DNA of 64,000 nt from Anaerolineales bacterium. GTDB lineage: Bacteria; Chloroflexota; Anaerolineae; Anaerolineales; UBA11579. The translations under genes and the position numbers were made by a program. The stretch is taken from the NCBI GenBank assembly GCA_016932165.1, contig JAFGDK010000069.1, forward strand, positions 1 through 64,000. Reading direction: 5' to 3'. Below the pieces are notes generated by a model, which had not been told where the DNA came from, searched no databases, and saw nothing but the letters and a program-made list of their open reading frames with translations. This document shows, one piece after another, positions 14,244 through 34,121 of the stretch; positions within the stretch are counted from its first letter, which is position 1; every line of letters begins with the position of its first letter.

Positions 14244-14748
14244 AGTGAAATGATAGCATAAAACCAAGGATTAGGCAGCGAGGGAACAGGGATTGGGGAT
14301 GCAGGGAACAGGCACATAGGCACTTAGGCACCGAGAGATTTGGAAAAATGCAGAGCCACTTGGTAATGATTGCCCGCCACTTTTTGGGGTCAAGCTCAGA
14401 GGATGCCGAACAGCGTCAGGAGGGGGGTTGGGTGTTGAGGATAAGAATTAAATTCACCGCAAAAGGTCGTTGATTCCTGCCGGATGAATTGTGGAAAGAC
14501 CAAAGGTGCTTTGGTGGGGGTGCTGTCGTTCCCGCTAATGCGGGAATCTAAGGTTTTAAGAATTGGCAGTTACCAGAAATATGGAGGGCTGTCAATTATT
14601 TAAGGTTTATCATTTAGCATGGGAGCGACCTGGTGTCAAGCAGTTCAAAAAGTGGATTAATCTACAACCTGTTGAAACCCCCTTCGGAAGCATTTATGAT
14701 CAGGTTGTAAGTTTCTGGTTATACTTAAGAAAATAAAAGGAGTCTGAC
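14244..14748. other. Intergenic region with a REP-like palindrome and a dyad upstream of the haemolysin III gene
   Basis: No gene is seen. TTCCCGC-TAAT-GCGGGAA (14529-14546) is a perfect hairpin inside GTCG...GAATC flanks, very like the TTCCCGC...GCGGGAA palindromes scattered in many bacterial genomes. A separate 9-bp perfect inverted repeat, TACAACCTG (14663-14671) with CAGGTTGTA (14701-14709), lies just upstream of a TATACT -10 box (14720-14725) for the following gene. Confidence 0.5.
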
Positions 14749-16965: not shown

Positions 16966-18765
16966 ATGTTTGAGCATATACGTAACTTTTGCATCATTGC
17001 GCACATTGACCACGGCAAGTCCACCCTGGCGGACCGGATGATCCAGGTGACCAATACCATCTCTGACCGTGAGATGACCGATCAGGTGCTGGACAGCATG
17101 GATTTGGAGCGCGAGAAGGGCGTTACGATCAAAGCTTCGGCGGTGCGGATGAATTACACCGCTGAAGATGGTAACACCTATCAATTGAACCTGATCGACA
17201 CCCCCGGTCATGTGGACTTTGGCTACGAGGTCAGCCGGGCGTTGAATGCCTGCGAAGGCGCCCTCCTGGTGGTGGATGCCAGCCAGGGCATGGAGGCCCA
17301 AACGATCGCCAACCTGTACCTCGCCCTGGAAGCTGATCTGGAGATCATCCCGGTGATCAACAAGATCGATATGATCTCGGCACAGCCGGACGAGGTGGCT
17401 GAGCAGATTGGCAATCTGATCGGCACCCCAAAAGAGGATATTTTACGTATCTCGGCCAAAGAGGGGCGCAACGTGATCGAGGTGCTCGAGGCAGTCGTCA
17501 AGCACGTGCCGCCGCCCAAAGGCGATCTGGATGCGCCGCCCCGCGCCCTGGTATTTGACTCGCATTACGATTCCTTTAAAGGCGTGGTGGCCTATGTGCG
17601 CATGGTTGACGGTATCCTTCAAAAATCTGATGACCTGCAGATGATCGCCACCGGTGTCGATTTCCGCCCGGTGGAGATCGGCGTGTTTGCCCCGCAATTG
17701 AAGGCCACTGGGGAAATCCGGGCAGGCGAAGTGGGGTACATTGCCACCGGGCTGAAAACCGTTTCCGAGAGCCGGGTGGGAGATACCGTCACGCTCAAAG
17801 CCAAAACCCTCCCGCCGGCCCTGCCGGGTTATAAAGAGGTCAAGCCGATGGTCTTTGCCGGGATCTATCCGGTGGAAGGCGAAGATTACCTGGATCTAAA
17901 AGAAGCGCTGGAGAAACTTCAGTTGAACGATGCCTCTCTGGTATTTGAGGCGGAGACTTCCCAGGCGCTTAATTTCGGCTTCCGCTGCGGGTTTTTAGGC
18001 ATGTTCCATATGGAGATCATCCAGGAACGGCTGGAACGCGAATATGACCTTGATATCATCATCACCGCACCCTCGGTGGAGTATGAGGTGGTGCTCAAAT
18101 CAGGTGAGACTATTCGCGTCGGGTCTCCAGCCGCCCTTCCGGATGAGAACAGCATTGAGGAGATCCGGGAGCCGTGGATGGAGATCCAGGTTTTTACTCC
18201 CACAGAATACTACGGTGCAGTCATGGATATGACCACCAAGCGCCGGGGGGTGTATCTCAGTGAGGAGTATGCTTCCTCAGATCGAGTGCAGCTGAATTTC
18301 GAAATCCCGCTGTCTGAGCTGATTGTCGACTTCTTTGATGTACTCAAGTCCCGCAGCCGGGGATACGCTTCCCTGGATTACCACTTCAAGGAATATCGGG
18401 CTGAAGACCTGACCCGCCTGGAGATATTGGTCAATGGTGAGCCGGTGGATGCCCTGGCTTCGATCGTTCACAAGGAGCATGCCTACCACCGCGGCCAGGC
18501 GCTGATCACCAAACTTAAGGATCTGATCCCGCGCCAGTTGTTCGTCGTCCCGATCCAGGCCAGCGCATCCAACCGGGTGATCTCACGGGCGAATGTGAAA
18601 GCGCTGCGCAAGGATGTACTCGCCAAGTGCTACGGGGGCGATGTTACCCGCAAGCGTAAGTTGTTGGAGAAACAGAAGAAAGGCAAGAAACGGATGAAAA
18701 TGGTTGGCAGTGTGGAGATCCCACAAGAGGCCTTCCTTGCCGTTTTAAAATTGGGTGATGATTAA
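16966..18765 (+). CDS. lepA: Elongation factor 4 (LepA)
   Basis: A ribosome-associated GTPase implicated in 30S biogenesis and in translation under stress. The 599-aa length is canonical. G-domain motifs are [14 protein letters not shown] (P-loop), the switch-I region [24 protein letters not shown] (G3) and NKIDM (G4). EF-G-like domains II, III and V and the LepA-specific C-terminal domain follow, including [12 protein letters not shown] and a Lys-rich end near [11 protein letters not shown]. The ATG lies 10 nt after a TATACT box. Its stop codon overlaps the next gene by 11 nt. Confidence 0.96.
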
Positions 18766-19777
18766 ATCTGGTAAAGGGGAGAAAGAGCAGGCTAACACCA
18801 TCCGCAAGATGCTGCCAGGGATTTTGGTCAGCGCATTGTGTGTGGCTGTGCTGATTTGGCAGATTGATCTTCAATCTACAGCAGAGGCTTTTGCACAGGT
18901 GCAAATCTGGCGGCTGATCGCTGGATTTGTGGTGCTGGTGCTGGCGTTAGCCGCCCGGGCAATTGGCTGGCGTGTTTTGATGCGCGAGCAGGTTTCATGG
19001 TCTGATTCATTCTCGGCAATCGGGATTGGCTATTTATTCAACCAGATTTTGCCTTTCAGGTTAGGCGAGGTGGCCCGATCGCTGGTGATCGGTCTGCGCA
19101 CACCGCTTTCCTTTTGGGAAGCTTTCCCCACTGTGGTGGTGGAACGCATCTTCGACCTGGCTTTCCTGGCGATGCTGCTTCTGGGAACACTTCCATTTGT
19201 TGCTGGGGTGGGATGGGCAGGGACTGCCGCTTTTGTATCCATCGCCCTGGTCTTGGGTGGATTTGGCGTTTTGTATGCCATCGTCCTCAATCCGGGAAAG
19301 GTGCAGGGATTATTTGCGAGTCTCTCAGACCGCTGGCCAAAAGTGAGAGAATCTGGGCAAGAGAAGATCGACCTTCTGCTGCGGGGCCTGTCGGTGCTCC
19401 GGCGGCCGGGGCGCTTTATTGCCGTCCTGGGCTGGATTGGCGCTACCTGGGGGCTGACTTTGGGGTGGAACGGGGTAGTGCTGCCTGACTTTTACCCCAA
19501 TCCAGGTGTCCTCGAACTTGGGTTTATTGTCGGGATTGCTGCGGTTGGGGTGGCGGCCCCCTCAACTCCGGGCAATCTGGGCGTGTATGAAGCCGCTATT
19601 TGGAGCGCATTTTTAGCACTGTCTGCCAACCCGGCCCAGGGTCTGGCTTTTGCCCTGGCGACCCATGGGATTTATATCCTGGCGATCCTCGTACTTGGGG
19701 TGATCGGTTTGCTGCGTACCAAGATTTCTCTGCGGGAGATTTACGGCGCGGCCCGAAATCGTCAGACCCAGGTCTGA
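18755..19777 (+). CDS. UPF0104 / lysylphosphatidylglycerol-synthase-type membrane protein
   Basis: A 340-aa polytopic protein of the LPG synthetase transmembrane (AglD/UPF0104) family. It shows the typical N-terminal helix ending before [10 protein letters not shown], the [19 protein letters not shown] motif, and a C-terminal [20 protein letters not shown] motif. Family members act in phospholipid flipping or as polyprenyl-linked glycosyl-transfer helpers (for example archaeal AglD); most bacterial ones are uncharacterised. It lacks the C-terminal acyl/lysyl-transfer domain of MprF. The start overlaps the end of lepA, and a GT4 gene follows 22 nt later, pointing to a role in envelope glycan or lipid assembly. 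Confidence 0.85.
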
Positions 19778-19799: not shown

Positions 19800-20954
19800 A
19801 TGCGGATTTTGATTGCTCTGACCTATTACCGCCCTCATTATTCAGGGCTGACGATTTATTCTGAACGGCTGGCGCGGGCCCTGGCTGCCCGCGGTCATCA
19901 GGTGACGGTATTGACATCCCGGTTTGATACCAGTTATCCGCAGGAGGAGATTGTACATGGAGTGCGGGTGGTACGGTTGCCGGTGATGATGCGGATCAGC
20001 AAGGGGGTGATCATGCCCTCGATGCCCTTGCGGGCCTGGCAGGAGATTAGAAATGCTGATGTGGTCAATCTGCATGTGCCCCAGTTTGATGCCGCTCCGA
20101 TTGCCACACTGGCGCGCCTGATGGGCCGCCCGGTGGTGATGACCTATCAGTGTGATCTGGAACTCCCCTCCGGCTTGATTAACCGGGTGGCGAATCTGGC
20201 CTCAGACGTGGTGAACGAAGTGACTGCCAGAATGGCAAATGTGATAGTGACTACCTCGCAGGATTATGCCGATCACAGCCGTTTTTTGATGCGTTATGCC
20301 AGCAAGATTTGGCCGATCTCACCGCCGGTCGTGCTGCAAGAGGTAGCCCCTGGTTTTATCGCCCAGGTGCGGGAAAAGTATCAGATCAAACCTGGCGAGA
20401 AGATTATTGGGATGGTTGCCCGGCTGGCGGCCGAAAAAGGGGTCGAATATCTGGTACGGGCGCTGCCGGAAGTATTGGCAACCCATCCGGAGGCGCGGGT
20501 GCTGTATGCTGGTCAGCATCAGAATGTGATGGGTGAGGAGGCCTATGCCGAGATGCTGGCTCCTCTGATCGCTGACCTGGGTGACCGCTGGCAGTTTTTG
20601 GGGATTATCCCCGATGATGAGCTGGCGGCTCTCTTCCATCTGTGTGATGTGGTTGTGCTGCCCAGCACCAACAGCACGGAGGCCTTCGGGATGGTGCAGG
20701 TGGAGGCGATGATCTGTGGGACCCCGGTGGTGGCCAGTGATATGCCCGGAGTGCGCCAACCGGTGATCCAGACAGGTATGGGAAAATTGTTTGTTCTCAA
20801 GGATGCCGCTTCCCTTGCTGAATCTCTGAGCGAGGTGCTGGAAAAACCAGGTCAATTTCAAGGGGACGTGCTGGAGATTTCCCGGCAATATGCCCCAGAT
20901 TCCACTGCAGCTGAATATGAAAAGGTCTTTCAATCCCTGGTGAGGAAAAACTGA
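19800..20954 (+). CDS. Glycosyltransferase family 4 protein
   Basis: A GT-B fold retaining glycosyltransferase of 384 residues. The N-terminal acceptor domain begins with ALTYYRPHYSGLTIYSERLA and ends near residue 190. The C-terminal donor domain has GMVARLAAEKGVEYLVRALP, the E-x7-E-type segment TEAFGMVQVEAMICGTPVVA and DMPGVRQ. These are hallmarks of the GT4 family (PimA/WbuB-like). The sugar donor and lipid acceptor cannot be read from sequence. Its TGA shares one base with the ATG of the Nudix-methyltransferase gene, indicating tight cotranslation in the glycan operon. Confidence 0.92.
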   Translation: MRILIALTYYRPHYSGLTIYSERLARALAARGHQVTVLTSRFDTSYPQEEIVHGVRVVRLPVMMRISKGVIMPSMPLRAWQEIRNADVVNLHVPQFDAAPIATLARLMGRPVVMTYQCDLELPSGLINRVANLASDVVNEVTARMANVIVTTSQDYADHSRFLMRYASKIWPISPPVVLQEVAPGFIAQVREKYQIKPGEKIIGMVARLAAEKGVEYLVRALPEVLATHPEARVLYAGQHQNVMGEEAYAEMLAPLIADLGDRWQFLGIIPDDELAALFHLCDVVVLPSTNSTEAFGMVQVEAMICGTPVVASDMPGVRQPVIQTGMGKLFVLKDAASLAESLSEVLEKPGQFQGDVLEISRQYAPDSTAAEYEKVFQSLVRKN

Positions 20955-22210
20955 TGCTGCTGAATATGGTCTGCCTGCCAGTGAAAAAGCAGGACGGGAT
21001 CATCACCGAGGTGCTGTTGGCGCGCAAAAAGATCGGGTTCGGGGCTGGCAAGATCGTCGGGGTGGGAGGCACGGTGGAACCCGGCGAAACCTTGTTCCAA
21101 ACTGTGGTGCGCGAGGTGAATGAAGAGATCAGCCTCCAAATCAAAGAGGGGGATCTGGAGCGAGCAGCCAAGATCACCTTTACCTTCCCTTCCAAGCCTG
21201 AGTGGGACAGGCTGGTTTACGTTTATCTGGTGGAGGATTGGGTGGGAATCCCGCAATCGAGCAATGAGGTCGATCCATTCTGGGTGCCGGTGGAAGAAAT
21301 CCCATATCATCAGATGTGGGCCGACAGCGCTGAATGGCTACCGGTGGTGCTTTCAGGGCGGCGGATTGTGGCCCGATTTTCATTTGAAGATGACAACGAG
21401 AGCCTGGCCTTTCAGGAAATCGATGAGGACAAAGATTTTCTTTGGCCGCAGATCAAAAGCCTGCCCTGGTTCCGGGCGCTGCTGCGCTCGGTGGAGGCCA
21501 GCTACTACCAGGACCTTGATTTCCCGGAACCCGTTCTGGATCTGGGCAGTGGAGACGGCCATTTTGCCGATGCGGCCTTTGATTTTACGATCAATGTAGG
21601 CCTGGATCCATGGTGGGGGCCGCTGGCAGCGTCTAAAAAATATCCGCATGCCTACGGCGGCCGGGTGCAGGCAGATGGCGCGGAGATGCCCTTCCCGGAT
21701 GGATATTTTGCCAGCGCGTTGAGCAATTCGGTGCTTGAGCATATTCCTCACCTGGATGAAGTGCTCGCTGAGACTGCCAGAGTCCTTAAGACTGGCGCTC
21801 CGTTTGTGTTTTGCTGCCCGAACCCGGGCCATTTCTCCGAACTATCCATATCCGGGGGGTTGCAAAAACTGGGCTTGAAAAAACTGGCAGACTGGTATCA
21901 GGAATGGTTTCGGCGCATCTCCCGTACCGAACACGCTGACCGGCCGGAGGTATGGGAAACGCGGCTCGAGAAATCTGGCTTTACCCTGGACCGCTGGTGG
22001 CATTATTTCCCGCCGGAATCGATGCGCGTGCTGGAATGGGGGCATTACCTCGGCGCGCCAAGTTTGCTGCCAAAATGGCTGCTGGGCCGCTGGCTGATTT
22101 CGGGGTCAGACTGGAATCTGGCTCTGATCGAGAAAGTCCTCCGCCCCTTTGCTCAGACTGAGCCGCACCCCCTGGGGACCTATACGTTTTACATTGCCAG
22201 AAGGAAGTAA
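20954..22210 (+). CDS. Fusion protein: MTH1-like Nudix hydrolase + SAM-dependent methyltransferase
   Basis: A 418-aa two-domain protein. Residues about 1-165 are a Nudix domain with a full box, G-TVEPG-E-TLFQTVV-REVNEEISL (only the late Gly is Ser). ARKKIGFGAGKIVGVGG just before it closely resembles human MTH1, an 8-oxo-dGTP hydrolase. Residues about 175-418 are a class I methyltransferase with PVLDLGSGDGHFAD (SAM motif I), DGAEMPFPDGYFASALS and NSVLEHIPHLDEVLAETARV (methyltransferase type 11). The linker shows no frameshift and codon use is even, so the fusion looks genuine. It sits between a GT4 and a GT39 gene. The methyl acceptor may be a glycan or polyprenyl intermediate, but that is inference. 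Confidence 0.9.
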   Translation: MLLNMVCLPVKKQDGIITEVLLARKKIGFGAGKIVGVGGTVEPGETLFQTVVREVNEEISLQIKEGDLERAAKITFTFPSKPEWDRLVYVYLVEDWVGIPQSSNEVDPFWVPVEEIPYHQMWADSAEWLPVVLSGRRIVARFSFEDDNESLAFQEIDEDKDFLWPQIKSLPWFRALLRSVEASYYQDLDFPEPVLDLGSGDGHFADAAFDFTINVGLDPWWGPLAASKKYPHAYGGRVQADGAEMPFPDGYFASALSNSVLEHIPHLDEVLAETARVLKTGAPFVFCCPNPGHFSELSISGGLQKLGLKKLADWYQEWFRRISRTEHADRPEVWETRLEKSGFTLDRWWHYFPPESMRVLEWGHYLGAPSLLPKWLLGRWLISGSDWNLALIEKVLRPFAQTEPHPLGTYTFYIARRK

Positions 22211-22388: not shown

Positions 22389-24566
22389 ATGGCCGATTTT
22401 GATAAAGATTCTCCCGAACTCCAGGAACCCTCTGTTTTGGATTATGTGCGTGCCCGGCTGATGCCCTGGCGCGGCCCTGCACCTGAGATTCCTGCGGAGC
22501 TTTCTTCAGGTGTGGTGCCGGCAGTGGAAGAAGAGGAAATCAGCAAGGGTGTGATAAGGTCCTGCATGGGTCTCTCAGAAGGGCTGCCGGTCAGGTCTCT
22601 TGGTGCGCTGGGATTAGCGCTGTTGGGCCAGTTCCTGTTAATGCCCTCTCTGCGCCAGCCATTGGCAGGGGGATTTTTCTTCGCACTTGCGGTGGGACTG
22701 CTGGTGTGGGCAGCCTCATCCGGCGAGTTGGTCCTGGCCGAACCAGCCGGCGATCAAGAATCAGAGGACGCCTTTGAAGTCCGTTTGCGCCCATTGGCGG
22801 CTGGGGTCTTGTTGCTGCTGGTGGCCTTTTTTGCCTTCTCCCGGAACCCGCAGAGCGGTGAATTCCTCTACACTGGTCTGAACCTTTTACTTTGGCTGGT
22901 TGGAATCGGTTTGGTATTGTACGCTTTGTGGCTGCCCCGCCTGAGTCCGGCTGAGCTGTTGGGGAGGATTAGAACTTTCCTCCAGCGGGAGGATTGGGAG
23001 ATCAGGTTTTCCCGGCACGCCGGATTGGTGCTGCTGGCATTTATTACGGCAGTTTTCTTCCGCGTTTTCAGGGTGGGAGAAGTGGTGCCGGAGATGTTCT
23101 CCGACCACGCTGAAAAGCTGCTGGATGTCTACGATGTACTAGAGGGGCATACCAAAATCTTCTTTGAACGCAATACCGGGCGTGAGGGGTTGCAGTTTCA
23201 TCTAATTGCCTGGACGATCCGGTTGTTCGGCACTGGAATCTCGTTTTTGAGCATGAAGATCGGCACGATCTTCTTCGGAATTTTCATGCTGCCGTATATG
23301 TATTTGCTGGGCAGGGAGTTAGGCAATAAAAACGTTGGTCTGCTGGCCATGCTGCTGACCGGGGTGTCCTATTGGCCGAATATCCTGGCCAGGGTGGCGC
23401 TGCGTTTTATCCTCTATCCGGCTTTTGCTGCCCCCACTATTTATTATCTGGTGCGCGGCCTGCGCACCGGCAAGCGGCATTACTTCATCCTCAGCGGGAT
23501 GTTCCTCGGCATCGGCTTACATGGATACAGCCCATTCCGGGCCGTGCCGGTGCTGGTAGTGGTCGTGTTTGTGTTGTACTGGCTCCAGCGGCGAGAGAGG
23601 GCGCGCTTTGACCGGGCTTTTGTCTGGCTGGGGATCGTGGCTTTTGTTTCCCTGACCGTTTTCCTGCCTTTACTGCGGGTCTGGGTTCAGGCGCCGGAAA
23701 TCTTTAACCAGCGCATGGCCTCGCGCCTGACAGCTGTTGAAGCCGGCGATCAGATGGCGCAAGGATGGTCGCTGGCCGGCGTTTTCTTAAAAAATGTGTG
23801 GGACGGCCTCTTGATGTTTAACTGGGACAGCGGCGATATCTGGGTGAATACGATTGTGCAGGCCCCCAGCCTGGAGATCGTCTCCGGCGCGGCGCTGATT
23901 TTGGGTGTTGCCCTGGTGGTTGGGCGGTACGTTCGCCAAGGGCGCTGGGAAGATGGGCTGCTTCTGTGGGGCATCCCGATCCTGATGCTGCCTTCAACCC
24001 TTTCCCTTGCTTATCCGCATGAGAACCCGGCACCCAACCGGGCGGGCGGGGCTGCGGTGGTGGTCTTCATCCTGGCGGCGATGGGGATTGAAGCCGTCCT
24101 GCGGGCCGTGCGCCAACGGGTGGGGGGAAAATTCGGGTTCAGGCTGGCAACAGTGCTGGGTATTGGGCTGGTCCTGATCGCCATTGGGCAGAACTACCTT
24201 CTGACCTTCAATACTTTTCCTTCCCATTATGTCCCCAACGCTAAAAACACTTCTGAATTGGGTGAAGTGATTGCCCAATTTACCGGTACCGTTGGGTCGC
24301 CCGACCAGGCCTGGGTGGTGGCCTTCCCGCATTGGGTCGATACCCGCTTGGTGGGGATCAATGCCGGGTTCCCGACCAGGGATTTTGCGATCTGGGAAGA
24401 AGATTTGGAAGAAACTTTGCTGGTAGAATCTCCAAAGCTGTTCCTGGTTAAGCTGGATGACCAGACCGGGCTGGAGAAACTGCAAGTCTTGTACCCTGAA
24501 GGGTCATTTGCTTTGTACCCAGCCAGGACTCCGGAGCAAAGTTTCATCATCTATTCAATTCCCTGA
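22389..24566 (+). CDS. GT39-type integral membrane glycosyltransferase
   Basis: A 725-aa GT-C fold glycosyltransferase of the dolichyl-phosphate-mannose protein mannosyltransferase (PMT_2) type, presumed to use a polyprenyl-phosphate sugar on the outer face of the membrane. An N-terminal cytosolic tail (about 1-75) precedes many helices. The first external loop carries the acidic site EMFSDHAEKLLDVYDVL and FERNTGREGLQFHL. The YWPNILARVALRFILYPAF segment is typical of the C-loop region. The C-terminal soluble part (about 600-725) is short. It is the first of three GT39-related proteins here. ATG at 22389 follows GAGATGTT with only a weak Shine-Dalgarno. Confidence 0.82.
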   Translation: MADFDKDSPELQEPSVLDYVRARLMPWRGPAPEIPAELSSGVVPAVEEEEISKGVIRSCMGLSEGLPVRSLGALGLALLGQFLLMPSLRQPLAGGFFFALAVGLLVWAASSGELVLAEPAGDQESEDAFEVRLRPLAAGVLLLLVAFFAFSRNPQSGEFLYTGLNLLLWLVGIGLVLYALWLPRLSPAELLGRIRTFLQREDWEIRFSRHAGLVLLAFITAVFFRVFRVGEVVPEMFSDHAEKLLDVYDVLEGHTKIFFERNTGREGLQFHLIAWTIRLFGTGISFLSMKIGTIFFGIFMLPYMYLLGRELGNKNVGLLAMLLTGVSYWPNILARVALRFILYPAFAAPTIYYLVRGLRTGKRHYFILSGMFLGIGLHGYSPFRAVPVLVVVVFVLYWLQRRERARFDRAFVWLGIVAFVSLTVFLPLLRVWVQAPEIFNQRMASRLTAVEAGDQMAQGWSLAGVFLKNVWDGLLMFNWDSGDIWVNTIVQAPSLEIVSGAALILGVALVVGRYVRQGRWEDGLLLWGIPILMLPSTLSLAYPHENPAPNRAGGAAVVVFILAAMGIEAVLRAVRQRVGGKFGFRLATVLGIGLVLIAIGQNYLLTFNTFPSHYVPNAKNTSELGEVIAQFTGTVGSPDQAWVVAFPHWVDTRLVGINAGFPTRDFAIWEEDLEETLLVESPKLFLVKLDDQTGLEKLQVLYPEGSFALYPARTPEQSFIIYSIP

Positions 24567-24581
24567 CAAGAGCGAACATTT

Positions 24582-27500
24582 ATGAGTGATCAAGAATCAA
24601 CATTGAAACTAGCCAACTCACCTGCCAGGGCTGCGACAAGAATATCTTCCCGCCGGGACCTGATCTATGATGTGGTCATGCTCCTGCTGCTGGTGGCCGG
24701 GGCGGTGCTGCGGCTCTCGGGGATTGACTGGGCTTCGGAAAATTACCTGCATCCCGATGAGCGCCATCTGGTCAATGTGGAAACCGCCCTCTCAACCGTG
24801 AAGACCTTCGGCGAGTATTGGGACACTGCCAATTCAACCCTGAACCCTCATAACGTGGGATACAACTTCTTTGTCTATGGGACCCTGCCGATCTTCCTGG
24901 TCCGTTATGTTTCGGAGTGGTTAGGGCAGATCGGTTATTCGGAGATGATGATCATCGGGCGGCAGCTTTCGGCGATTGCCGACCTGTTTGTCGTGCTGCT
25001 GGTTTACCTGACTGCCTCGCGCGCCTTTGACCGCCGGGTAGGGCTGGCGGCGGGTGCTTTCAGCACTTTCACTGTGCTGCAGATCCAGATTTCTCATTTC
25101 TTTGCTGTCGATACTTACCTGACCTTGTTCAGTATGTTGGCGGTGTATTTGGCTGTTCGGCTGGCAACCGAAGAGAACCCGGACCGGGGACCGGTATTCA
25201 AACCCTGGTTGTTTGTTCTTTTTGGGATAGCCCTGGGGATGGCGGTCGCCTCAAAAATCAACACGGTGCCGGTTGCGCTCGTGCTCCCGCTGGCAGTCTG
25301 GGTGCGGATCTCGAGGCTGGACCGGGGCGAACAGTTTGACGCGGCCTGGCATGCGTCTGGATACCTGATCGTGGCGGCGTTGGTCAGCCTGGTAACCTTC
25401 CGCATTTTCCAGCCGTATGCCTTCAGCGGCCCCGGTTTCTTGGGTGTCATCCCGAACCCCAAATGGGTGGATAATATCAGGGAGCTGATGCGCCAGACCA
25501 ACGGCGATTTTGACTGGCCGCCGTCTATCCAGTGGGCCCGGCGCCCGTTGTGGTTTTCGTTTCAGAATATGGTCTTGTGGGGCATGGGTGTCCCGATGTC
25601 TGTGATGGCTTGGGGCGGGTTCCTGGTTGCCGGCTGGCAGATGTTAAAAGGGCGGTGGCGACAATTTTTGGTGATGTGGGTTTGGACGGCGTTTTATTTC
25701 GGATGGCAGTCAATGGCCTTCAACCCAACGATGCGCTACCAGATTCTGGTGTACCCGGTGCTGGCAATCTTTGCCGGCTGGGCAGTGGTGAGTCTGTGCG
25801 ATTGGGCTGGTAAAGCGGCCAGGGCAAAACGAATCTGGCAGATTGGCGCGGCGGTGGTTGGAGTGGGCTCAATATTGCTGACTGCCTGGTGGGCGGTGGC
25901 TTTTGCCGGGATTTACACTCGCCCGATCACCCGGGTGGCAGCTTCGGACTGGATCTTCCACAATGTGCCTGGCCCGTTGAATTTGCAGATCGAAACCGAA
26001 GAAGGGGTCTATTCTCAGCCCCTGCCGCTGCCGTACGGGCAAATTATTGCCTACCAGACCGCTTATACCACCAGTTTTATGCCAAAACAGAACGGGTTGC
26101 TGCGCCAGGTGGCGTATAAGGATGTCTTCACTGGCGGCGGAGAGCAGGTGGTGGCAGTGACTTTATCTGAGGCTGGAGGTGTTGGTCTGCCGGTTTATGC
26201 CCAGAGCCAGCAGGCGGCATTTGATACTCCTGACGGGCTGCTGGAACTGGCTTTCATTGACGAGAATAAAGCCATCCTGCCGGGAGACCGGTATTATGTC
26301 CTCGAAATCGGTTTGTTCTCAGGCGATACGCCGGTAAGATTGGAAACAGGCAGTCTCCGGCTGGAAGGCGTCTCGGGGACGATGCGCCTGCCGTTGACGC
26401 AGGAGCCGGTTGAATTGCAGGCGGGGGGCAATGTGCATTCATATTCCTTCACTACGGTGGAGACCGTCTCTCTTTTGGATGTGAGCCTCACCCTGACTCA
26501 GGGAGAATCAAGTCTGCCTGATGAGCAGGTTTTCCGCATTTTGTTGGATACCGATCCAGAGTTTTCCCGCCCGACGGTCTCCGCGCCAGTGGCAATCTCC
26601 GGGCTGGCAGACGGCGTCAGCCGTGAGGGCGGTATTTTTGAATTGGAGGATTCCCTACTGCTGGAGTCGGGAACCCTCTACCATTTGCGGATTGAGAATC
26701 TCACCGAAGGCGGTTCGGCCACTTTCCAGGGGGCAACCCTAGCAAATGAAGGTTCATGGGATGATGGTTTGCCGATGCCCACCGGTGGGTATAACGGCTA
26801 CGGCGGCATTTACCCGCCCGATATGGGCTTTGATATGTACAATGACGCCAACCCGGATAAGCTGGCACGCTTCCTTTATCTGTTGGAGACCTCCGAATAC
26901 CTGACGATCTCCTCCAGCCGGCAGTGGGCCAGCACCACCCGCATCCCGGAACGCTATCCGCTGAATGTGGTCTATTACCGAAATCTGCTGGGCTGCCCGG
27001 AGGAGCGCACGATTGAATGGTGCTATAACGTGGCTGAACCGGGGATGTTTGAGGGCAACCTGGGCTTTGAATTGATCCGGACCTTCCAGTCTGATCCGGA
27101 ATTTGCGGGGCTGCGGATCAACGACCAGTTTGCTGAGGAGGCTTTCACTGTTTACGACCACCCCAAGGTGTTTGTCTTCAAGAAGCAGGCCGGCTATGAC
27201 CATGCAGCCGTAACGGAGATTTTAAGCCAGGTAGATTTTGATAACGTCATCCGGCTGACGCCCAAGCAGGCAGGCGAATTTAAATCGCTGCTGCTATCAG
27301 AGCCGGCGCGTGCCCGGCAGCGCGAGGCTGGCACCTGGTCTGAGTTGTTTGATTCCGATGCCTGGTACAACCGTTCCGGGATAGGGGCGGTGGCGCTCTG
27401 GTATCTGGCGCTGACTGTGTTGGGTTGGGCGGTCTTCCCGCTGGTGCGAAAAGCGCTCCCGGGACTGCCGGATAACGGTTACCCGCTGGTGCGCACTGCC

Positions 27501-29822
27501 GGGATGCTGCTGCTGGCTTATCTGAGCTGGCTGGCCGGGTCTGTGGGATTGGGGTACACCAAACCGGTGATTGCGGGTGTCTTCCTGCTTTTGTCTGCCC
27601 TGGGCATCTGGCAGGCTGTTGTGCAGCGGGATGAGCTTACGCGGCTTTTGCGGGCTCGCTGGCGGGAGTTCCTGCGGGTGGAAGTGGTCTTCCTGGCTGC
27701 TTTTCTGCTCGTGCTGCTGGTGCGCTACGGCAACCCTGACCTGTGGCACCCCTACAAGGGCGGTGAGAAACCGATGGATTTCGCCTACTTCAATGCGATC
27801 CTCAAGACAGTGTCTTTCCCGGCCTACGATCCCTGGTATGCCGGCGGTTATATCAACTACTATTATTTTGGATTTGTGTTTGTCGGCACGCTGGTCAAGA
27901 TGCTTGGGATTGTACCCGCTCTGGCTTACAACATCATCCTGCCGACCCTGTTTGCCATGATCTTCACCGGGGCATATTCGGCTGCCGGGAACCTGTACCG
28001 TAAATGGGAGGCGGATCGGGATCACCCTGCTCAGAAGACCATAATCCCAGCCTGGCTGGTGGGCATTGCTGGAGGGCTGATCACAGCCTTCCTGGGCAAT
28101 CTAGGTACCATCCGGATGATCATTGAAGGCTTCCAGCGGCTGGCAGCCCAAGGCGATTTCAGCCGGGAAGCGGCATTTTTCACCAAAGTTGGCTGGACGT
28201 TCTCAGGGTTTGGGCAGCTGCTGAAGGGCACGGGTTTACCCTACGGGATGGCAGAGTTTTACTGGCAGCCCAGCCGGGTGATCCCCGCACTGAATGAACC
28301 GGAACCGATCACCGAGTTTCCCTGGTTCACCACCATCTACGCTGACTTGCACGCCCATTTCATGTCATTGGCCCTGGTCTTCCTGGCGCTGGCCTGGGTG
28401 ATGGCAGTCGTGTTCTCCAAAGCCTGGCAGGGCAGCCGCCGCTGGCAAGTGGTGTGGAGTTTCGCCTTTGCCGGGGTTTCGATTGGTGCGCTGCGCCCAA
28501 CCAATACCTGGGACCTGCCTGCATATCTGGCCCTGGGTGGAGTGGCGGTGATTTTTGCGGCCTTCCGCTATGGGGGCGAATCGCCGCCAATGCGTTTGAA
28601 TGCTGCCCAATGGAAGTGGGGGCAGGCAATCGGCGGTTCGCTGATCCTGATGGTGCTCACTTTCCTTCTCTATCAACCCTTTGCCCGCTGGTATGGGATG
28701 CCTTATAGTCAGGTGATGCTGTGGCGCGGCACACATACCCCGATCAGCTCCTATTTTGTGCATTGGGGGCTGTTCTTGTTCATTTTAGTTTTCTGGATGG
28801 GCTGGGAAACCCGCCAGTGGATGGCGGCCACCCCGCTCTCTGCTTTACGCCGCCTTGAACCGTATCGCGCCTTGATCTATGCTGGAGGCGGGCTGATATT
28901 ACTGGCTATGCTGGTGATGGCAGTCTGGCTCAAGGTGCGCATTCACTTGGTCGCCATGCCGCTGGCGGTTTGGACAGCGGTGCTGCTTTTCCGCAAAGGT
29001 GCCAGCGACAGCAAACGGATGGTGCTCTTTATGACCGGGACCGCCCTGTTCCTGACGATGCTGGTCGAGGTGGTGGTGCTCTCTGGTGATATTGGGCGGA
29101 TGAACACGGTTTTTAAATTTTACCTGCAGGCCTGGGTGTTGTTTGGGGCCAGCAGCGCAGCCGCTTTTGGCTGGACGCTGACTGAAATGCGCCGCTGGCA
29201 GGAGGGCTGGCAGTCTGCCTGGCGGATCGGGTTGGCTTTGCTGGCGCTGGGTGCATTCATGTTCCCGCTGACCGCGACGATGACTAAGGTCCAGGACCGC
29301 ATGTCGGCGCAAGCACCGCATACCCTGGACGGGATGGCTTTTATGATTACCTCTGAGTATCCGGATGAGGGCGGCGTGGTGCAGCTGGATGAAGAATATG
29401 AGGCTATCCGCTGGGCGCAGGAGAATATCACCGGTACCCCGGTGATTGTGGAGGCCAATACACCGCTGTATCGTTGGGGAAGCCGCTTCAGCATCTATAC
29501 CGGTTTACCCACGGTATTGGGCTGGGACTGGCACCAGACACAGCAGCGCGGTTTCAGCCAGGTGACCCGCATTCCAGGGCGGCAGGAAGCCATCCGTATG
29601 TTTTACCTGATGGATGACCGCACCCTCACCGAGGAATTCCTGCGGGAATACCAGGTGGATTACATCATCCTCGGCCAGTTGGAGCGCAATTACTACCCTG
29701 GCGTCGGGCTGGATAAATTCGAGCGCTGGAATGGCGACCTGTGGCAGGAGGTCTTTCGCAATGAAGAGACCGTGATCTACGAGGTGCGGGATGGAGTGCT
29801 TTATGATCGGATGGGAGAGTAA
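24582..29822 (+). CDS. Giant GT39-DUF2298 (Chlor_Arch_YYY) fusion membrane protein
   Basis: A 1746-aa protein with two membrane modules. About residues 25-480 form a GT39-like module with the acidic loop NYLHPDERHLVNVETAL (Asp-Glu near residue 57) and SHFFAVDTYLTLFS. Residues about 480-920 are largely extracytoplasmic and beta-rich. From about 930 to the end is a DUF2298 module, with GEKPMDFAYFNAIL (about 1061), INYYYFGFVFVGT (the YYY motif, about 1091), TIYADLHAHF (about 1251) and RMNTVFKFYLQAWVLFG (about 1505). DUF2298/Chlor_Arch_YYY proteins occur mainly in Chloroflexota and some archaea and have no proven function. It starts 15 nt after the preceding GT39 gene. Confidence 0.85.
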   Translation: MSDQESTLKLANSPARAATRISSRRDLIYDVVMLLLLVAGAVLRLSGIDWASENYLHPDERHLVNVETALSTVKTFGEYWDTANSTLNPHNVGYNFFVYGTLPIFLVRYVSEWLGQIGYSEMMIIGRQLSAIADLFVVLLVYLTASRAFDRRVGLAAGAFSTFTVLQIQISHFFAVDTYLTLFSMLAVYLAVRLATEENPDRGPVFKPWLFVLFGIALGMAVASKINTVPVALVLPLAVWVRISRLDRGEQFDAAWHASGYLIVAALVSLVTFRIFQPYAFSGPGFLGVIPNPKWVDNIRELMRQTNGDFDWPPSIQWARRPLWFSFQNMVLWGMGVPMSVMAWGGFLVAGWQMLKGRWRQFLVMWVWTAFYFGWQSMAFNPTMRYQILVYPVLAIFAGWAVVSLCDWAGKAARAKRIWQIGAAVVGVGSILLTAWWAVAFAGIYTRPITRVAASDWIFHNVPGPLNLQIETEEGVYSQPLPLPYGQIIAYQTAYTTSFMPKQNGLLRQVAYKDVFTGGGEQVVAVTLSEAGGVGLPVYAQSQQAAFDTPDGLLELAFIDENKAILPGDRYYVLEIGLFSGDTPVRLETGSLRLEGVSGTMRLPLTQEPVELQAGGNVHSYSFTTVETVSLLDVSLTLTQGESSLPDEQVFRILLDTDPEFSRPTVSAPVAISGLADGVSREGGIFELEDSLLLESGTLYHLRIENLTEGGSATFQGATLANEGSWDDGLPMPTGGYNGYGGIYPPDMGFDMYNDANPDKLARFLYLLETSEYLTISSSRQWASTTRIPERYPLNVVYYRNLLGCPEERTIEWCYNVAEPGMFEGNLGFELIRTFQSDPEFAGLRINDQFAEEAFTVYDHPKVFVFKKQAGYDHAAVTEILSQVDFDNVIRLTPKQAGEFKSLLLSEPARARQREAGTWSELFDSDAWYNRSGIGAVALWYLALTVLGWAVFPLVRKALPGLPDNGYPLVRTAGMLLLAYLSWLAGSVGLGYTKPVIAGVFLLLSALGIWQAVVQRDELTRLLRARWREFLRVEVVFLAAFLLVLLVRYGNPDLWHPYKGGEKPMDFAYFNAILKTVSFPAYDPWYAGGYINYYYFGFVFVGTLVKMLGIVPALAYNIILPTLFAMIFTGAYSAAGNLYRKWEADRDHPAQKTIIPAWLVGIAGGLITAFLGNLGTIRMIIEGFQRLAAQGDFSREAAFFTKVGWTFSGFGQLLKGTGLPYGMAEFYWQPSRVIPALNEPEPITEFPWFTTIYADLHAHFMSLALVFLALAWVMAVVFSKAWQGSRRWQVVWSFAFAGVSIGALRPTNTWDLPAYLALGGVAVIFAAFRYGGESPPMRLNAAQWKWGQAIGGSLILMVLTFLLYQPFARWYGMPYSQVMLWRGTHTPISSYFVHWGLFLFILVFWMGWETRQWMAATPLSALRRLEPYRALIYAGGGLILLAMLVMAVWLKVRIHLVAMPLAVWTAVLLFRKGASDSKRMVLFMTGTALFLTMLVEVVVLSGDIGRMNTVFKFYLQAWVLFGASSAAAFGWTLTEMRRWQEGWQSAWRIGLALLALGAFMFPLTATMTKVQDRMSAQAPHTLDGMAFMITSEYPDEGGVVQLDEEYEAIRWAQENITGTPVIVEANTPLYRWGSRFSIYTGLPTVLGWDWHQTQQRGFSQVTRIPGRQEAIRMFYLMDDRTLTEEFLREYQVDYIILGQLERNYYPGVGLDKFERWNGDLWQEVFRNEETVIYEVRDGVLYDRMGE

Positions 29823-29828
29823 GCCCCT

Positions 29829-32318
29829 ATGATCTGGTTAGCGCCGGTTTTTTGGTATTTGTTGGTCAGTGCGGTTGGGGTGGGGGTATTTCCGCTGGCC
29901 TTCCGCTTCTTTCCCGGGCTCCCAGACCGCGGTTTTGCTGTCAGCCGGGCGCTGGGTTTGCTATTGTGGGGGTACATTTTCTGGCTGCTGAGCTCACTGG
30001 GAATCCTGGTCAATACCACCGGCGGGATTGTGGCTGCGCTGTTAATCGTGGCCGCAGGCAGCTATCTGGCCTGGCGCAAGGTGGACAAAGCAGCATTTAA
30101 AACCTGGCTGGAGGAGAAACGCAAAACCCTGATGGCTGTAGAGATTGTCTTTGTGCTCAGCTTTGTCTTCCTGCTGATCTTTCGCGGCATGGAGCCGGCC
30201 ATCCTCGGTACGGAAAAGCCAATGGAACTGGCCTTCATCAATGCGATCCTGCGCTCCCCACAGATGCCACCGCTGGACCCCTGGCTGGCAGATTATGCCA
30301 TCTCATATTATTACTTCGGCTATGTCCTCGTAGCTATGCTGGCCAAGGTTACCGGGGTCAGCGGTGGTGTGGCGTTCAATCTGGGTCTATCTTTGGTGTT
30401 CGCCCTGGGGGCGGCTGGGGCTTACGGAATTTTGCACAACCTGCTGGCAGCTCTGCCGGATGAGCGCAAACCGAACCTGGTTGCGCTTCCCCTTCTGGGG
30501 CCGGTGTTTGTCTTCATTCTCAGCAATGTGGAGGGCTTCCTGGAATTCATCCACGGGCGCGGCGTATTCTGGCAGCAGTTGCCAGATGGTGTTTGGAGGT
30601 CAGCTTTCTGGTCCTGGGTCAATCTGGATAACCTCAAAATGCCCCCGCCAGAGAATACGGCTCCCGGCCAGCTGCGCCACTGGTGGTGGTGGCGGGCTTC
30701 CCGGGTGGTAGCCGATTTTGATTTCTACGGAAACTTCCGCGAGGTGATTGACGAGTTCCCATTCTTCTCGTTCCTGCTCGGAGACCTGCACCCGCATGTG
30801 TTGGTGATCCCGTTTGTGATGCTGGCCCTGGCTTTCAGCCTGAATATGTTCCTGCAGCCTGTTCCGGAAGAAGACCGCCGCTTTCGATTGTTCCGGTTCG
30901 ATTATTTATTCCGCAGCGAGACCTTTTTGCTGGGGGTAGTCATCTTTGGTGGTTTGGGCTTCTTGAATGTATGGGACTTCCCCTGGTATGTGGTGGTCTT
31001 TGCAAGCGCTCATCTGCTGCGCAAGTCTGAGCGGGAGGGCTGGGCGCTGGACCGCCTGCTGGAGTTTGGGGTGATTATCCTGGCCTTTGGGTTGTTTGGG
31101 GTGGTCGCTTATCTACCGTTTTACATCAGTTTCTCCTCCCAGGCTGGCGGGATTTTGCCGAATGTGATCAACCCGACCCGCGGCATCCACCTTTGGATCA
31201 TGTTTGGCACTTTGTTCCTGCCGTTATTCTCGTTTCTCTTCTACCTGGCTGGCGGCCGCAAGAAGCCAGGCAGCGTGGTTAAAGGGGTAGGGCTGGCAAT
31301 GGCTGGGGTGCTGCTCTTGTTTGGAGTTTCACTGCTGCTTGCCAATCTGCTTGCCAACCAGACCGTGATCATTGGGGGGGCAGAAGTTCGTCCATTCTTA
31401 CAGATGCATGGGGTCTCTAATTTGGCGGAACTTCTGGGCGAAGGAATTAACCGGCGCCGGGCATCAATTTTCAGCTTAATCACCCTTACCAGTTTGCTGG
31501 GGTTGGCCTTGAGGGCGGTCTGGCCGGAATCGAATGCCGGAGATGCGGAAGCCAATCAAAGCCTGCCTGCCCCGCACCGATTTGTTGTCGTCATGATTGT
31601 GGTGGGCAGTTTGTTGGTGATTGTGCCGGAGTTTGTTTACCTGCGAGACTTGTTCCAAACCCGGATGAATACGGTCTTCAAGTTCTATTATCAGGGCTGG
31701 ATTTTGTGGGCGCTGGCGGCTGCGTATGGAAGTGCGGTGATGTTCCAGGCGCCCCAAAAGAGGCTTAGCGGGAAGATTTATCCGGCAGTGTTTGTGATCG
31801 CCTTGCTGGTAGGGCTGACCTATCCGGCGATGGGCATCCACACCCGGGTCTCCACATTTTTGTCCAACCCGGATGCCAAACTGGAACTTGACGGCACGGC
31901 GAATAACTATTATCTCAGCGCTGAGGAACAGGCTGCGGTGGAATGGCTGATTCAAGCTCCGACTGGCACTTTGGCAGAGGCAATCCATCCTCAGGGAGGC
32001 AGCTACACTCACTTTGCCCGCATCTCGATGAACTCCGGCCAGCCGGCGGTGTTGGGTTGGGTCGGTCATGAAGGCCAATGGCGCGGCGGAGATGAAGAAA
32101 TGGGTTCCCGCCAGTTGGATATCGAGCGTCTTTACCAAACTGCTTCCTGGCAGGATGCTTCACGGATCATTGATGAGTACAAGATTACTTATATTGTGGT
32201 TGGCAATCTTGAAAGAAGCACCTACGCCCTGGATGAAGACAAATTCACCCGCAACCTACCAGCGGTATTCCAGCAGGGCAGCATCACGATCTACCACACT
32301 GGCGTGCCGGGTGAGTGA
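29829..32318 (+). CDS. DUF2298 (Chlor_Arch_YYY) membrane protein
   Basis: An 829-aa polytopic protein equivalent to the C-terminal module of its 1746-aa neighbour. Shared signatures are TEKPMELAFINAIL (about residue 127), ISYYYFGYVLVAM (about 160), LLGDLHPHVLVIPF (about 317) and RMNTVFKFYYQGWILW (about 611). The conserved acidic, His and Tyr residues on presumed outer loops suggest a GT-C-like enzyme, but no reaction is known. It begins 6 nt after the fusion gene. The C-terminal soluble part (about 690-829) resembles the end of the fusion protein (EYKITYIVVGNLERSTY against EYQVDYIILGQLERNYY), so the two are paralogues. Confidence 0.85.
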   Translation: MIWLAPVFWYLLVSAVGVGVFPLAFRFFPGLPDRGFAVSRALGLLLWGYIFWLLSSLGILVNTTGGIVAALLIVAAGSYLAWRKVDKAAFKTWLEEKRKTLMAVEIVFVLSFVFLLIFRGMEPAILGTEKPMELAFINAILRSPQMPPLDPWLADYAISYYYFGYVLVAMLAKVTGVSGGVAFNLGLSLVFALGAAGAYGILHNLLAALPDERKPNLVALPLLGPVFVFILSNVEGFLEFIHGRGVFWQQLPDGVWRSAFWSWVNLDNLKMPPPENTAPGQLRHWWWWRASRVVADFDFYGNFREVIDEFPFFSFLLGDLHPHVLVIPFVMLALAFSLNMFLQPVPEEDRRFRLFRFDYLFRSETFLLGVVIFGGLGFLNVWDFPWYVVVFASAHLLRKSEREGWALDRLLEFGVIILAFGLFGVVAYLPFYISFSSQAGGILPNVINPTRGIHLWIMFGTLFLPLFSFLFYLAGGRKKPGSVVKGVGLAMAGVLLLFGVSLLLANLLANQTVIIGGAEVRPFLQMHGVSNLAELLGEGINRRRASIFSLITLTSLLGLALRAVWPESNAGDAEANQSLPAPHRFVVVMIVVGSLLVIVPEFVYLRDLFQTRMNTVFKFYYQGWILWALAAAYGSAVMFQAPQKRLSGKIYPAVFVIALLVGLTYPAMGIHTRVSTFLSNPDAKLELDGTANNYYLSAEEQAAVEWLIQAPTGTLAEAIHPQGGSYTHFARISMNSGQPAVLGWVGHEGQWRGGDEEMGSRQLDIERLYQTASWQDASRIIDEYKITYIVVGNLERSTYALDEDKFTRNLPAVFQQGSITIYHTGVPGE

Positions 32319-32342: not shown

Positions 32343-34121
32343 ATGCCGATGGAAGTGAAAACAGAGTTTAAGAGAGGTTGGTCGCCCACGCTTGAGCAGC
32401 TGCTCTATTTATTGGCCTTTGTGATCGCATTGGTCATGCGTCTTGCTGCCCTAGGACAGCACCATCTCTCCGAATTAGAAGCGGGATATGCCTTGCAAGC
32501 ATTCCAGGTGGCGCAGGGAGACGAACTTCAAATGCTGGGCCATCCGGCTTACATCCAATTGACCGGTTTGCTGTTCTACTTGTTCGGCAGTGGTGAAGTC
32601 CTCGCCCGGTTGCTTCCCGCGCTGGCGGGCAGTTTTGTGGTCTTGCTGCCGTACATTGTGCGTGAATTTGTTGACCCGCGCGCGGCTCTCGTGGCAGCGT
32701 TTGGTCTGGCGCTGGACCCGATCTCGGTGGCAGTTTCTCGTCAGGCAGGCAGTCCGGCCATGGCGCTTGGATTTTTAGGGCTGGCGGTCTTCTTCTGGCA
32801 GCGCAAGCGCCCACTTGTGGCGGGTTTCTTTGCCGGTTTGCTGCTTCTCTCTGGGATTTCTTTTGTATTTGGGCTTGTTTCTGTGCTGGCTGCCTGGCTG
32901 GTGATCCGATTTGCAACCGATTTCAAGCTGAAGCTGCAGATTGAGTCTGAGGAGCGCAATTTGATCCTTGGGGGGGTTGGGATTGCACTTGTTTCAGTGG
33001 GAACCTTGTTTGCCCTTGAACTTCAGGGACTGGCGGCCCTGGCGCAGGCTGTTGCGGATTATTTCGCTGGCTGGTTTAGTTCCGCCGGCGCACAGCAACC
33101 CCTTGCAGTTTTATTTGAGTTGATCGTCTATCAGCCGCTGGGATTGCTGTTTGCTGCCTTCTTGTGGCTCAACCGGGCCAGGAACAGCGAGGCAGTCAAT
33201 ATCTTGCTGACGGTGCTATTCCTGGTGATCATCGGGTTGATTCTGCTCTACTCGGCTCGCCAGGCCTGGATGCTGATCTGGGCAGCCGTGCCGCTTTGGC
33301 TTTTGGCAGGCCAGTTTGTGGGGGAGTATCTCTCTCTACCCGAAGAGCCTGACGGCATGCTGGTGTGGGGCGGGGCGGTATTCTATTTGGTTTTACTGGT
33401 GTATTGGTGGATGAATCTCGCCCAGCTTACTACGGAAATTGGCCTGGTGCGTCCCGATGGTGTCAGCCTTTGGGAGTTGATCAGGATTGACCCGGTTTCC
33501 CGGGCATATTTTGTGCGTTTGCTGGTGACGATCCTGATCCCGGTGCTGATCGCGGTGATGATCGCTTTGATCTCCTGGGGTTGGACTGAAGATGCGGCCA
33601 TCCGCGGGGCAGTTTGGGGAGTGGGATTCTTTCTGTTTTTCTATGGGCTTATGGCGGCCTGGGGATTTTCAGCCCCGCCGGAAGAATTGGCTGCCGAACT
33701 TTGGGTGCAGGGGCCGTCTGTCGGCTACACAGAGGAATTAATGGATGCAATTGAAGAAGCTTCTGTGCAGATCACCGGAACCAAGTATGAGCTGGAAATG
33801 GTGTACCAGATTGATTCTCGCCTGGTGGACTGGCTGCTGCGAGGTTTTCCTAATGCGGTTTATAGTCCCCAGCTTGCTGCCGGTGATCTGCCGGATGTCA
33901 TTCTGAATCAAAATCTTGGGTTCATAGAGGGGGATAACGGCGATCTGTATGGCGGCCAGCATTTTGTGTTACAACTTGAACGCGCCTGGAGCAATCAGGT
34001 GGTACCGCCTGATTTTGGCCGCTGGCTGGTTTACCGCCAGGCCCCGGTGGAAAAGGATTGGGCATACCTGTGGACAAGGGCGGATCGTTTCCCATTGTAT
34101 GAACTTGCACCAGTAGAGTAA
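32343..34121 (+). CDS. GT39-like membrane protein, Agl23-type
   Basis: A 592-aa polytopic membrane protein of the mannosyltransferase superfamily. It resembles the set annotated as flippase activity-associated Agl23, which is usually found beside DUF2298 proteins. The first external loop has HHLSELEAGYALQAFQVAQ and GHPAYIQLTGLLFYLFG. YREFVDPRAALVA-like and GSPAMALGFLGLAVFFW stretches match the superfamily pattern. The C-terminal 130 residues are soluble. Two ATGs (32343 and 32349) are possible, and the weak AGGAT fits the second slightly better. It ends the glycan block, with a cmk promoter embedded at its stop codon. Confidence 0.75.
   Translation: MPMEVKTEFKRGWSPTLEQLLYLLAFVIALVMRLAALGQHHLSELEAGYALQAFQVAQGDELQMLGHPAYIQLTGLLFYLFGSGEVLARLLPALAGSFVVLLPYIVREFVDPRAALVAAFGLALDPISVAVSRQAGSPAMALGFLGLAVFFWQRKRPLVAGFFAGLLLLSGISFVFGLVSVLAAWLVIRFATDFKLKLQIESEERNLILGGVGIALVSVGTLFALELQGLAALAQAVADYFAGWFSSAGAQQPLAVLFELIVYQPLGLLFAAFLWLNRARNSEAVNILLTVLFLVIIGLILLYSARQAWMLIWAAVPLWLLAGQFVGEYLSLPEEPDGMLVWGGAVFYLVLLVYWWMNLAQLTTEIGLVRPDGVSLWELIRIDPVSRAYFVRLLVTILIPVLIAVMIALISWGWTEDAAIRGAVWGVGFFLFFYGLMAAWGFSAPPEELAAELWVQGPSVGYTEELMDAIEEASVQITGTKYELEMVYQIDSRLVDWLLRGFPNAVYSPQLAAGDLPDVILNQNLGFIEGDNGDLYGGQHFVLQLERAWSNQVVPPDFGRWLVYRQAPVEKDWAYLWTRADRFPLYELAPVE

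Follow-up and report, generated by a model that had tools for sequence, protein, structure and literature searches.

The locus discussed here raises the question of what the membrane protein family DUF2298 does, and why one of its members is fused to a glycosyltransferase-like module when a second member is encoded directly behind it. In the window, a stretch of 64,000 nucleotides from an Anaerolineales bacterium, the ORF of 1746 aa is followed downstream by the stand-alone gene of 829 aa after a gap of 6 nt. The two genes comprise the following features.

24582..29822, + strand: fusion protein, 1746 aa, in which an extracytoplasmic middle region connects a GT39/PMT-like GT-C module to a DUF2298/TIGR03662 module; a single uninterrupted ORF started by ATG, with Pfam/NCBIfam matches, models and fold searches
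24645..25919, + strand: GT39/PMT-like GT-C transmembrane module, aa 22-446 of the fusion; PF02366, PF13231, AlphaFold2 model with pLDDT 90.6, fold matches and invariance
24747..24761, + strand: LHPDE catalytic-type motif in the GT39-like module; H57, P58, D59 and E60 invariant in 50 relatives
25932..27371, + strand: middle region, aa 451-930 of the fusion (about 480 aa); delimited by DSSP of the model, some solved GT-C chains align into it
27384..29819, + strand: fused DUF2298/TIGR03662 module, aa 935-1746; TIGR03662 518.8 bits, PF10060 E 1e-114
27765..27779, + strand: EKPMD motif of the fused copy, aa 1062; motif search
27858..27872, + strand: YYYFG motif of the fused copy, aa 1093; motif search
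28344..28358, + strand: DLHAH motif of the fused copy, aa 1255; motif search
29097..29123, + strand: RMNTVFKFY motif of the fused copy, aa 1506; motif search
29829..32318, + strand: stand-alone DUF2298/TIGR03662 protein, 829 aa, predicted GT-C fold; one ORF, Pfam/NCBIfam matches, model and fold matches
30213..30227, + strand: EKPME motif of the stand-alone copy, aa 129, with E129, the predicted catalytic acid, at the tip of the helix after GT-C TM1; model, invariant in 131 sequences
30306..30320, + strand: YYYFG motif of the stand-alone copy, aa 160, where the second helix of the first outer loop begins; model and motif search
30783..30797, + strand: DLHPH motif of the stand-alone copy, aa 319, immediately before TM4 in the second of the large outer loops, a predicted site for metal or substrate; model, topology and motif search
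31662..31688, + strand: RMNTVFKFY motif of the stand-alone copy, aa 612, on a late TM helix at its outer end, a predicted binding site for the phosphate of the donor lipid; model, topology and motif search

Both proteins are full members of the family by sequence, as PF10060 (DUF2298) matches the fused copy with E 1.1e-114 and 384.5 bits and the stand-alone copy with E 7.6e-109 and 365.3 bits (cut-off 27.8), and TIGR03662 matches them with 518.8 and 496.9 bits, respectively (curated cut-off 300.25). The two regions share 29-31% identity in a pairwise alignment (E 1e-39) and a probability of 100% in the profile-profile comparison (E 8e-138). The original prediction had recognized four ordered motifs common to the C-terminal half of the fusion and its 829-aa neighbour; these are present in the same order in both proteins, and 0 of 2000 shuffles of the protein contain all four in order. 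The motifs are hallmarks of the DUF2298 family itself, to which the libraries used assign no function, with TIGR03662 (Chlor_Arch_YYY) taking its name from the YYY. Fusion of one of the copies to a GT39 module, equally predicted, is confirmed by PMT and PMT_2 profiles that match the N-terminal part, whereby PF02366 (PMT) aligns partially at aa 127-247 with profile positions 86-205 of 245 (43.5 bits versus a cut-off of 22.7). As the assignment rests on the Pfam PMT/PMT_2 matches and the fold, 'GT39-like' is the safer name. The extracytoplasmic region of approximately 480 aa between the modules, absent from the original prediction, is composed of the start of a GT-C periplasmic domain (AASDWIF), a beta-rich part (aa 466-723) and an alpha/beta part (aa 739-930).

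What DUF2298 might be is indicated by its predicted fold. The AlphaFold2 model of the stand-alone protein, based on 131 aligned copies, fused ones and stand-alone ones alike (pLDDT 93.9, pTM 0.95), displays around three extra N-terminal TM helices (aa 1-85), a GT-C core and a C-terminal extracytoplasmic domain (aa 679-829), with helices assigned by DSSP at 98-121, 130-142, 163-175 and 179-207, including juxtamembrane helices between TM1 and TM2. Foldseek retrieves DPY19 (7e-6) and AftA (2.9e-4) as first matches, and VIA-align 2 aligns the model with STT3 (Z 14.3, 462 residues aligned), ALG12 (13.8), AftA (13.1; rmsd 5.0, 496 aligned), DPY19 (12.7), AglB (12.3), Pmt1-Pmt2 (12.1), AftB (12.0) and ArnT (11.1). 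Because VIA-align 2 warns that Z scores below approximately 13 can be unspecific for helical proteins, the fold argument rests on the homogeneity of the list, in which the first 40 solved entries are all GT-C proteins with Z from 14.3 to 7.2, on the gap beneath it (the next, unrelated entry has Z 5.3), on the 400-500 aligned residues and on the C-terminal domain, which separately matches its AglB counterpart (Z 10.1, rmsd 2.4, 111 aligned). By sequence, neither phmmer nor a profile search found a relation between DUF2298 and solved GT-C proteins, and the profile-profile comparison with GT39 gives a probability of 5%, within the range of the reversed-alignment controls. The fused DUF2298 module reaches 91% in a profile-profile comparison with the family of the 592-aa protein encoded further downstream, although the alignment is confined to a C-terminal TM stretch.

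The N-terminal half of the fusion is more readily placed, as its model (pLDDT 90.6) matches AglB with Z 31.6, STT3 with 28.7, Pmt4 with 27.6 and ArnT with 27.2. GPI transamidase complexes, of which PIG-U is a subunit, also match this half. With the N-terminal half plainly GT-C and DUF2298 GT-C-like, the 1746-aa protein is, according to the models, composed of two GT-C modules in one chain. Since PIG-U possesses a GT-C fold considered catalytically inactive (PMC7801869), the fold alone does not prove activity.

Conservation was counted over the alignment of the 131 DUF2298 sequences with a threshold of at least 90%; helix parity, together with the outer location of the C-terminal domain, gave the topology. 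Seventy-seven positions are conserved at this threshold, 52 of them in outer loops or the C-terminal domain, 18 in the outer halves of TM helices and seven on the inner side; this corresponds to 70 of 559 outer versus 7 of 270 inner positions. All four motifs are located on the predicted outer face, and the positive charge of the inner loops (17% versus 7%) is consistent with the assigned topology. Invariant in all 131 sequences are E129, Y160, Y161, D319, H321, H323, R612, N614 and K618, and these nine residues are retained in nearly all classes of DUF2298 modules. The catalytic aspartate of GT-C_A enzymes is reported to sit at the tip of JM1, the first juxtamembrane helix (PMC12041299), where the invariant acid of DUF2298 is glutamate (E129) and not aspartate, with the nearly invariant D150 in the same loop. 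We infer the correspondence of the motifs to the active site and the residue roles from topology. Cumulatively, predicted fold, topology and conservation strongly support the original proposal that DUF2298 is itself GT-C-like with conserved polar residues outside, as the structural comparison proposed as a check returned GT-C entries exclusively among the top 40 and the motifs are found on the predicted outer face. DUF2298 is thus, as far as models can tell, very probably a GT-C enzyme.

The joining of two such modules in one protein is widespread, conserved in much of Chloroflexota and not peculiar to one genome. A strong TIGR03662 match occurs in 198 of the 301 Chloroflexota genomes sampled, in many of them as a long fusion accompanied by a stand-alone copy. 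As among the best 150 matches listed 58 are in frames of approximately 1280-2120 aa and 36 in frames of more than 2300 aa (56 are shorter), the fused form is common. In archaea, DUF2298 was found in two of 14 control genomes. The gene order GT4, NUDIX/methyltransferase, 725-aa PMT-like protein, fusion, stand-alone protein and 592-aa protein recurs among 80 loci, nearly all of them from Anaerolineae. The surrounding genes of the window are listed here.

13377..14267, - strand: decaprenyl-phosphate phosphoribosyltransferase (UbiA family); NF008977 247.6 bits versus an equivalog cut-off of 234
18755..19777, + strand: LPG_synthase_TM/flippase-like membrane protein, first in the gene run; PF03706, present in some relatives' loci
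19800..20954, + strand: GT4 cytoplasmic glycosyltransferase of the operon; profile match and synteny
20954..22210, + strand: NUDIX-methyltransferase protein of the operon; profile match and synteny
22389..24566, + strand: 725-aa PMT_2-type GT-C-like protein, conserved preceding gene; PF13231 E 4e-8, hhalign to GT39 98%, synteny
32343..34121, + strand: 592-aa GT-C-like protein, weak TIGR03663 (Agl23-type) relative, conserved next gene; hhalign to GT39 95%, synteny

Against TIGR03663 itself the 592-aa protein scores 30.1 bits, below the cut-off of 126.25. NUDIX and methyltransferase domains form one protein of 418 aa here and in locus L033, and two shorter adjacent ORFs in many relatives. Several relatives have, between fusion and stand-alone gene, an acetyltransferase-like ORF, judged GNAT-type by eye, which is absent in the window; examples are given below.

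L037, 9384-9989: acetyltransferase-like ORF
L077, 9330-9992: acetyltransferase-like ORF
L079, 9345-9968: acetyltransferase-like ORF
L094, 8785-9954: acetyltransferase-like ORF

Elsewhere in the window, a gene at 50534-51922 (- strand) combines a 3-keto-disaccharide hydrolase-type domain and DUF4956 in one protein and adjoins a gene for a CotH kinase with a PKD domain (51940-53580).

The architecture of the fusion is itself variable. Two genomes of one family encode, beside a stand-alone copy, a chain of 2498 aa composed of GT39, DUF2298, DUF2298 and TPR repeats, that is, three predicted GT-C modules in one polypeptide.

L117, 4100-11593, - strand: triple GT-C protein, 2498 aa
L118, 4450-11943, + strand: triple GT-C protein, 2498 aa

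In a similar triple-module protein of another genome, G150 (L121, 4992-11990, - strand), the first DUF2298 module has lost nearly all motif residues, which constitutes a natural test of module redundancy. In the tree of modules, the stand-alone copies are apart from the fused ones and the fused copies split with moderate support into two classes, whereby the notion that all fused copies are orthologous and go back to one fusion is rejected. A compact genome (L120) has two unfused DUF2298 copies, and genome G301 encodes a DUF2298 module of the fused class that lacks the GT39 half (L082, 8345-10807) and, at a separate locus (L136), a 792-aa protein of GT39 and middle region; the latter is sister to a stand-alone paralogue in the L095 genome, the fused GT39 half of which sits on a long branch. 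The fusion in L085 (5586-10549) and the stand-alone gene in L103 (9947-12554) are split into several frames in single metagenome assemblies, through either sequencing error or decay.

Does the fusion mean joint function? The original prediction had taken it as a physical argument that DUF2298 works together with a polyprenyl-phosphate-sugar transferase. Functional linkage is favoured because the fusion is old and phylum-wide, and to this extent the argument holds. On the other hand, the encoding of the two halves by separate genes in G301 shows that the covalent link is dispensable in one lineage, and the proposed coevolution of the two modules was not supported: in a mirror-tree test of tree distances (rates) across 29 loci, all genes of the operon correlate (0.72-0.91), with a partial correlation of 0.009 for the fused pair and no coevolution specific to GT39 and DUF2298.

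We consider it likely that DUF2298 is a GT-C_A glycosyltransferase and that the 1746-aa protein, a PMT/GT39-like module joined to a DUF2298 module, together with the separate DUF2298 enzyme and the GT-C-like proteins of 725 and 592 aa, builds or decorates a surface glycan on the outer face from polyprenyl-linked sugars. Activation of the acceptor would fall to the acid that tips the first juxtamembrane helix (E129 of the stand-alone protein, D59/E60 of the GT39-like half), the D-x-H-x-H of the outer loop (D319, H321, H323) would bind metal or substrate, and R612/K618 at the outer end of the late TM helix would hold the donor phosphate. Sugars may thus be transferred extracytoplasmically from polyprenyl-linked donors onto the growing glycan in successive steps by neighbouring GT-C modules, two of which the fusion would keep side by side. 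A bolder version, in which two or three active GT-C modules per polypeptide (GT39-DUF2298 and GT39-DUF2298-DUF2298-TPR) form an assembly line that passes one surface glycan between active sites, with DUF2298 as an unrecognized GT-C family that has a D-x-H-x-H site and the role of STT3 in these bacteria, appears rather unlikely.

With respect to the donor, the UbiA-family gene at 13377..14267 possibly provides, to judge from its sequence, a polyprenyl-phosphate pentose, as decaprenyl-phosphate phosphoribosyltransferase (DPPR synthase) starts the formation of such donors (PMC11127046). The gene belongs to a separate cluster, with an at most suggestive linkage to the operon; it adjoins genes for mevalonate kinase and isopentenyl phosphate kinase (12440-13372 and 11621-12427, both - strand), and this supply cluster for polyprenyl and polyprenyl-phosphate pentose is located 4.5 kb from the glycan operon. 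Among the 301 genomes, DPPR synthase and DUF2298 occur together in 185, one alone in 13 and 5 and neither in 98 (raw counts without phylogenetic correction), and the genes are rarely adjacent. A donor that is always a polyprenyl-phosphate pentose is rejected, since the compact, nearly complete DUF2298 genomes G057, G162, G194 and G042 have no strong match to DPPR synthase. With a DPPR synthase in the window and AftA, a pentose transferase, among the closest folds, the pentose donor is kept only as a lead.

Alternative roles of a GT-C fold have to be weighed against glycosyl transfer. Purified Agl23 from H. hispanica supported translocation of lipid-linked oligosaccharides and suppressed loss of RFT1 in yeast (PMC11182771), and TIGR03663, which names Agl23, co-occurs almost perfectly with DUF2298 (187 genomes with both, 11 and 2 with one alone and 101 with neither, again as raw counts over 301 genomes) and has a weak relative in the next gene. 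DUF2298 could by analogy be a scramblase, flippase or accessory of lipid-linked sugar transport, which we judge unlikely, as the most conserved residues line the outer face and not a path across the membrane, the conserved acid after TM1 occupies the catalytic position of GT-C enzymes and the gene run opens with a flippase-like gene of its own (LPG_synthase_TM). In another reading, the chemistry is left to the GT39 half or the stand-alone copy, and one DUF2298 copy, in all likelihood the fused one, serves as a catalytically dead scaffold for the acceptor or for partner enzymes. The protein of G150 demonstrates that modules can survive the loss of their motif residues, but both copies of the class found in the window keep all of them, which suggests selection for function in each and renders a scaffold very improbable.

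A further alternative is an oligosaccharyltransferase-like enzyme that transfers a whole glycan en bloc in place of STT3/AglB, and not single sugars. The highest Z score of the stand-alone model is to STT3, the C-terminal domain resembles that of AglB and the D-x-H-x-H stands before TM4, at the place that the second metal-binding acidic motif occupies in STT3. True STT3, present in seven of the 301 genomes, accompanies TIGR03662 in one of these seven, equivalent to 1 of the 198 DUF2298-bearing genomes (likewise raw counts), a near absence that fits a replacement and by which STT3 as a partner of DUF2298 is rejected. However, the WWDYG hallmark is absent from both proteins, PF02516 has no match in either of them (E 0.5) or in their own genome, ALG12, AftA and DPY19, all of them users of monosaccharide donors, trail STT3 by less than 2 Z units, and Haloferax and Methanosarcina carry STT3 and DUF2298 together. 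En bloc transfer is distinctly unlikely.

In the freely accessible literature searched, no functional paper uses the names DUF2298, TIGR03662 or TIGR03663, and neither a tandem GT-C chain of this kind nor a GT-C assignment of DUF2298 nor the phylum-wide operon is described. The sequence family is already catalogued, and the long architecture itself probably is as well, as the NCBI description of TIGR03662 presumably covers long members in which an additional N-terminal region, two domain copies and TPR repeats are combined. Beyond this, and apart from any grouping in Pfam clans, the analysis contributes a GT-C placement of DUF2298 together with a probable active site, the recognition that one chain can hold two or three GT-C modules, and an operon that extends through the phylum. 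If correct, the reading provides DUF2298, a family without assigned function that is present in archaea and most sampled Chloroflexota, with a fold, a mechanism that lends itself to testing and a probable site of catalysis. GT-C enzymes, as a rule single in their chain, can moreover occur in strings of two or three, and the conserved operon offers a direct handle on the surface glycan of a phylum with poorly understood envelopes.

Compared with the known GT-C_A enzymes (STT3/AglB, AftA, AftB, DPY19, ALG9/ALG12, PMT and ArnT), DUF2298 shares the predicted fold, the acid-bearing helix after the first core TM, conservation on the outer face and the C-terminal extracytoplasmic domain. It differs in the glutamate in place of aspartate at the JM1 tip, the D-x-H-x-H, the approximately three additional N-terminal TM helices, a sequence without detectable similarity and the tandem joining to one or two further GT-C modules. 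Agl23 (TIGR03663) represents a separate sister family that is the constant genomic partner of DUF2298, with the TIGR03663-type protein in L122 also matching PMT_2. Among the top matches, the arabinofuranosyltransferase AftA (8if8) has the longest alignment and the lowest rmsd (496 residues, 5.0) and, at 12% identity, is the only one that also covers the N-terminal helices (model residues 20..826).
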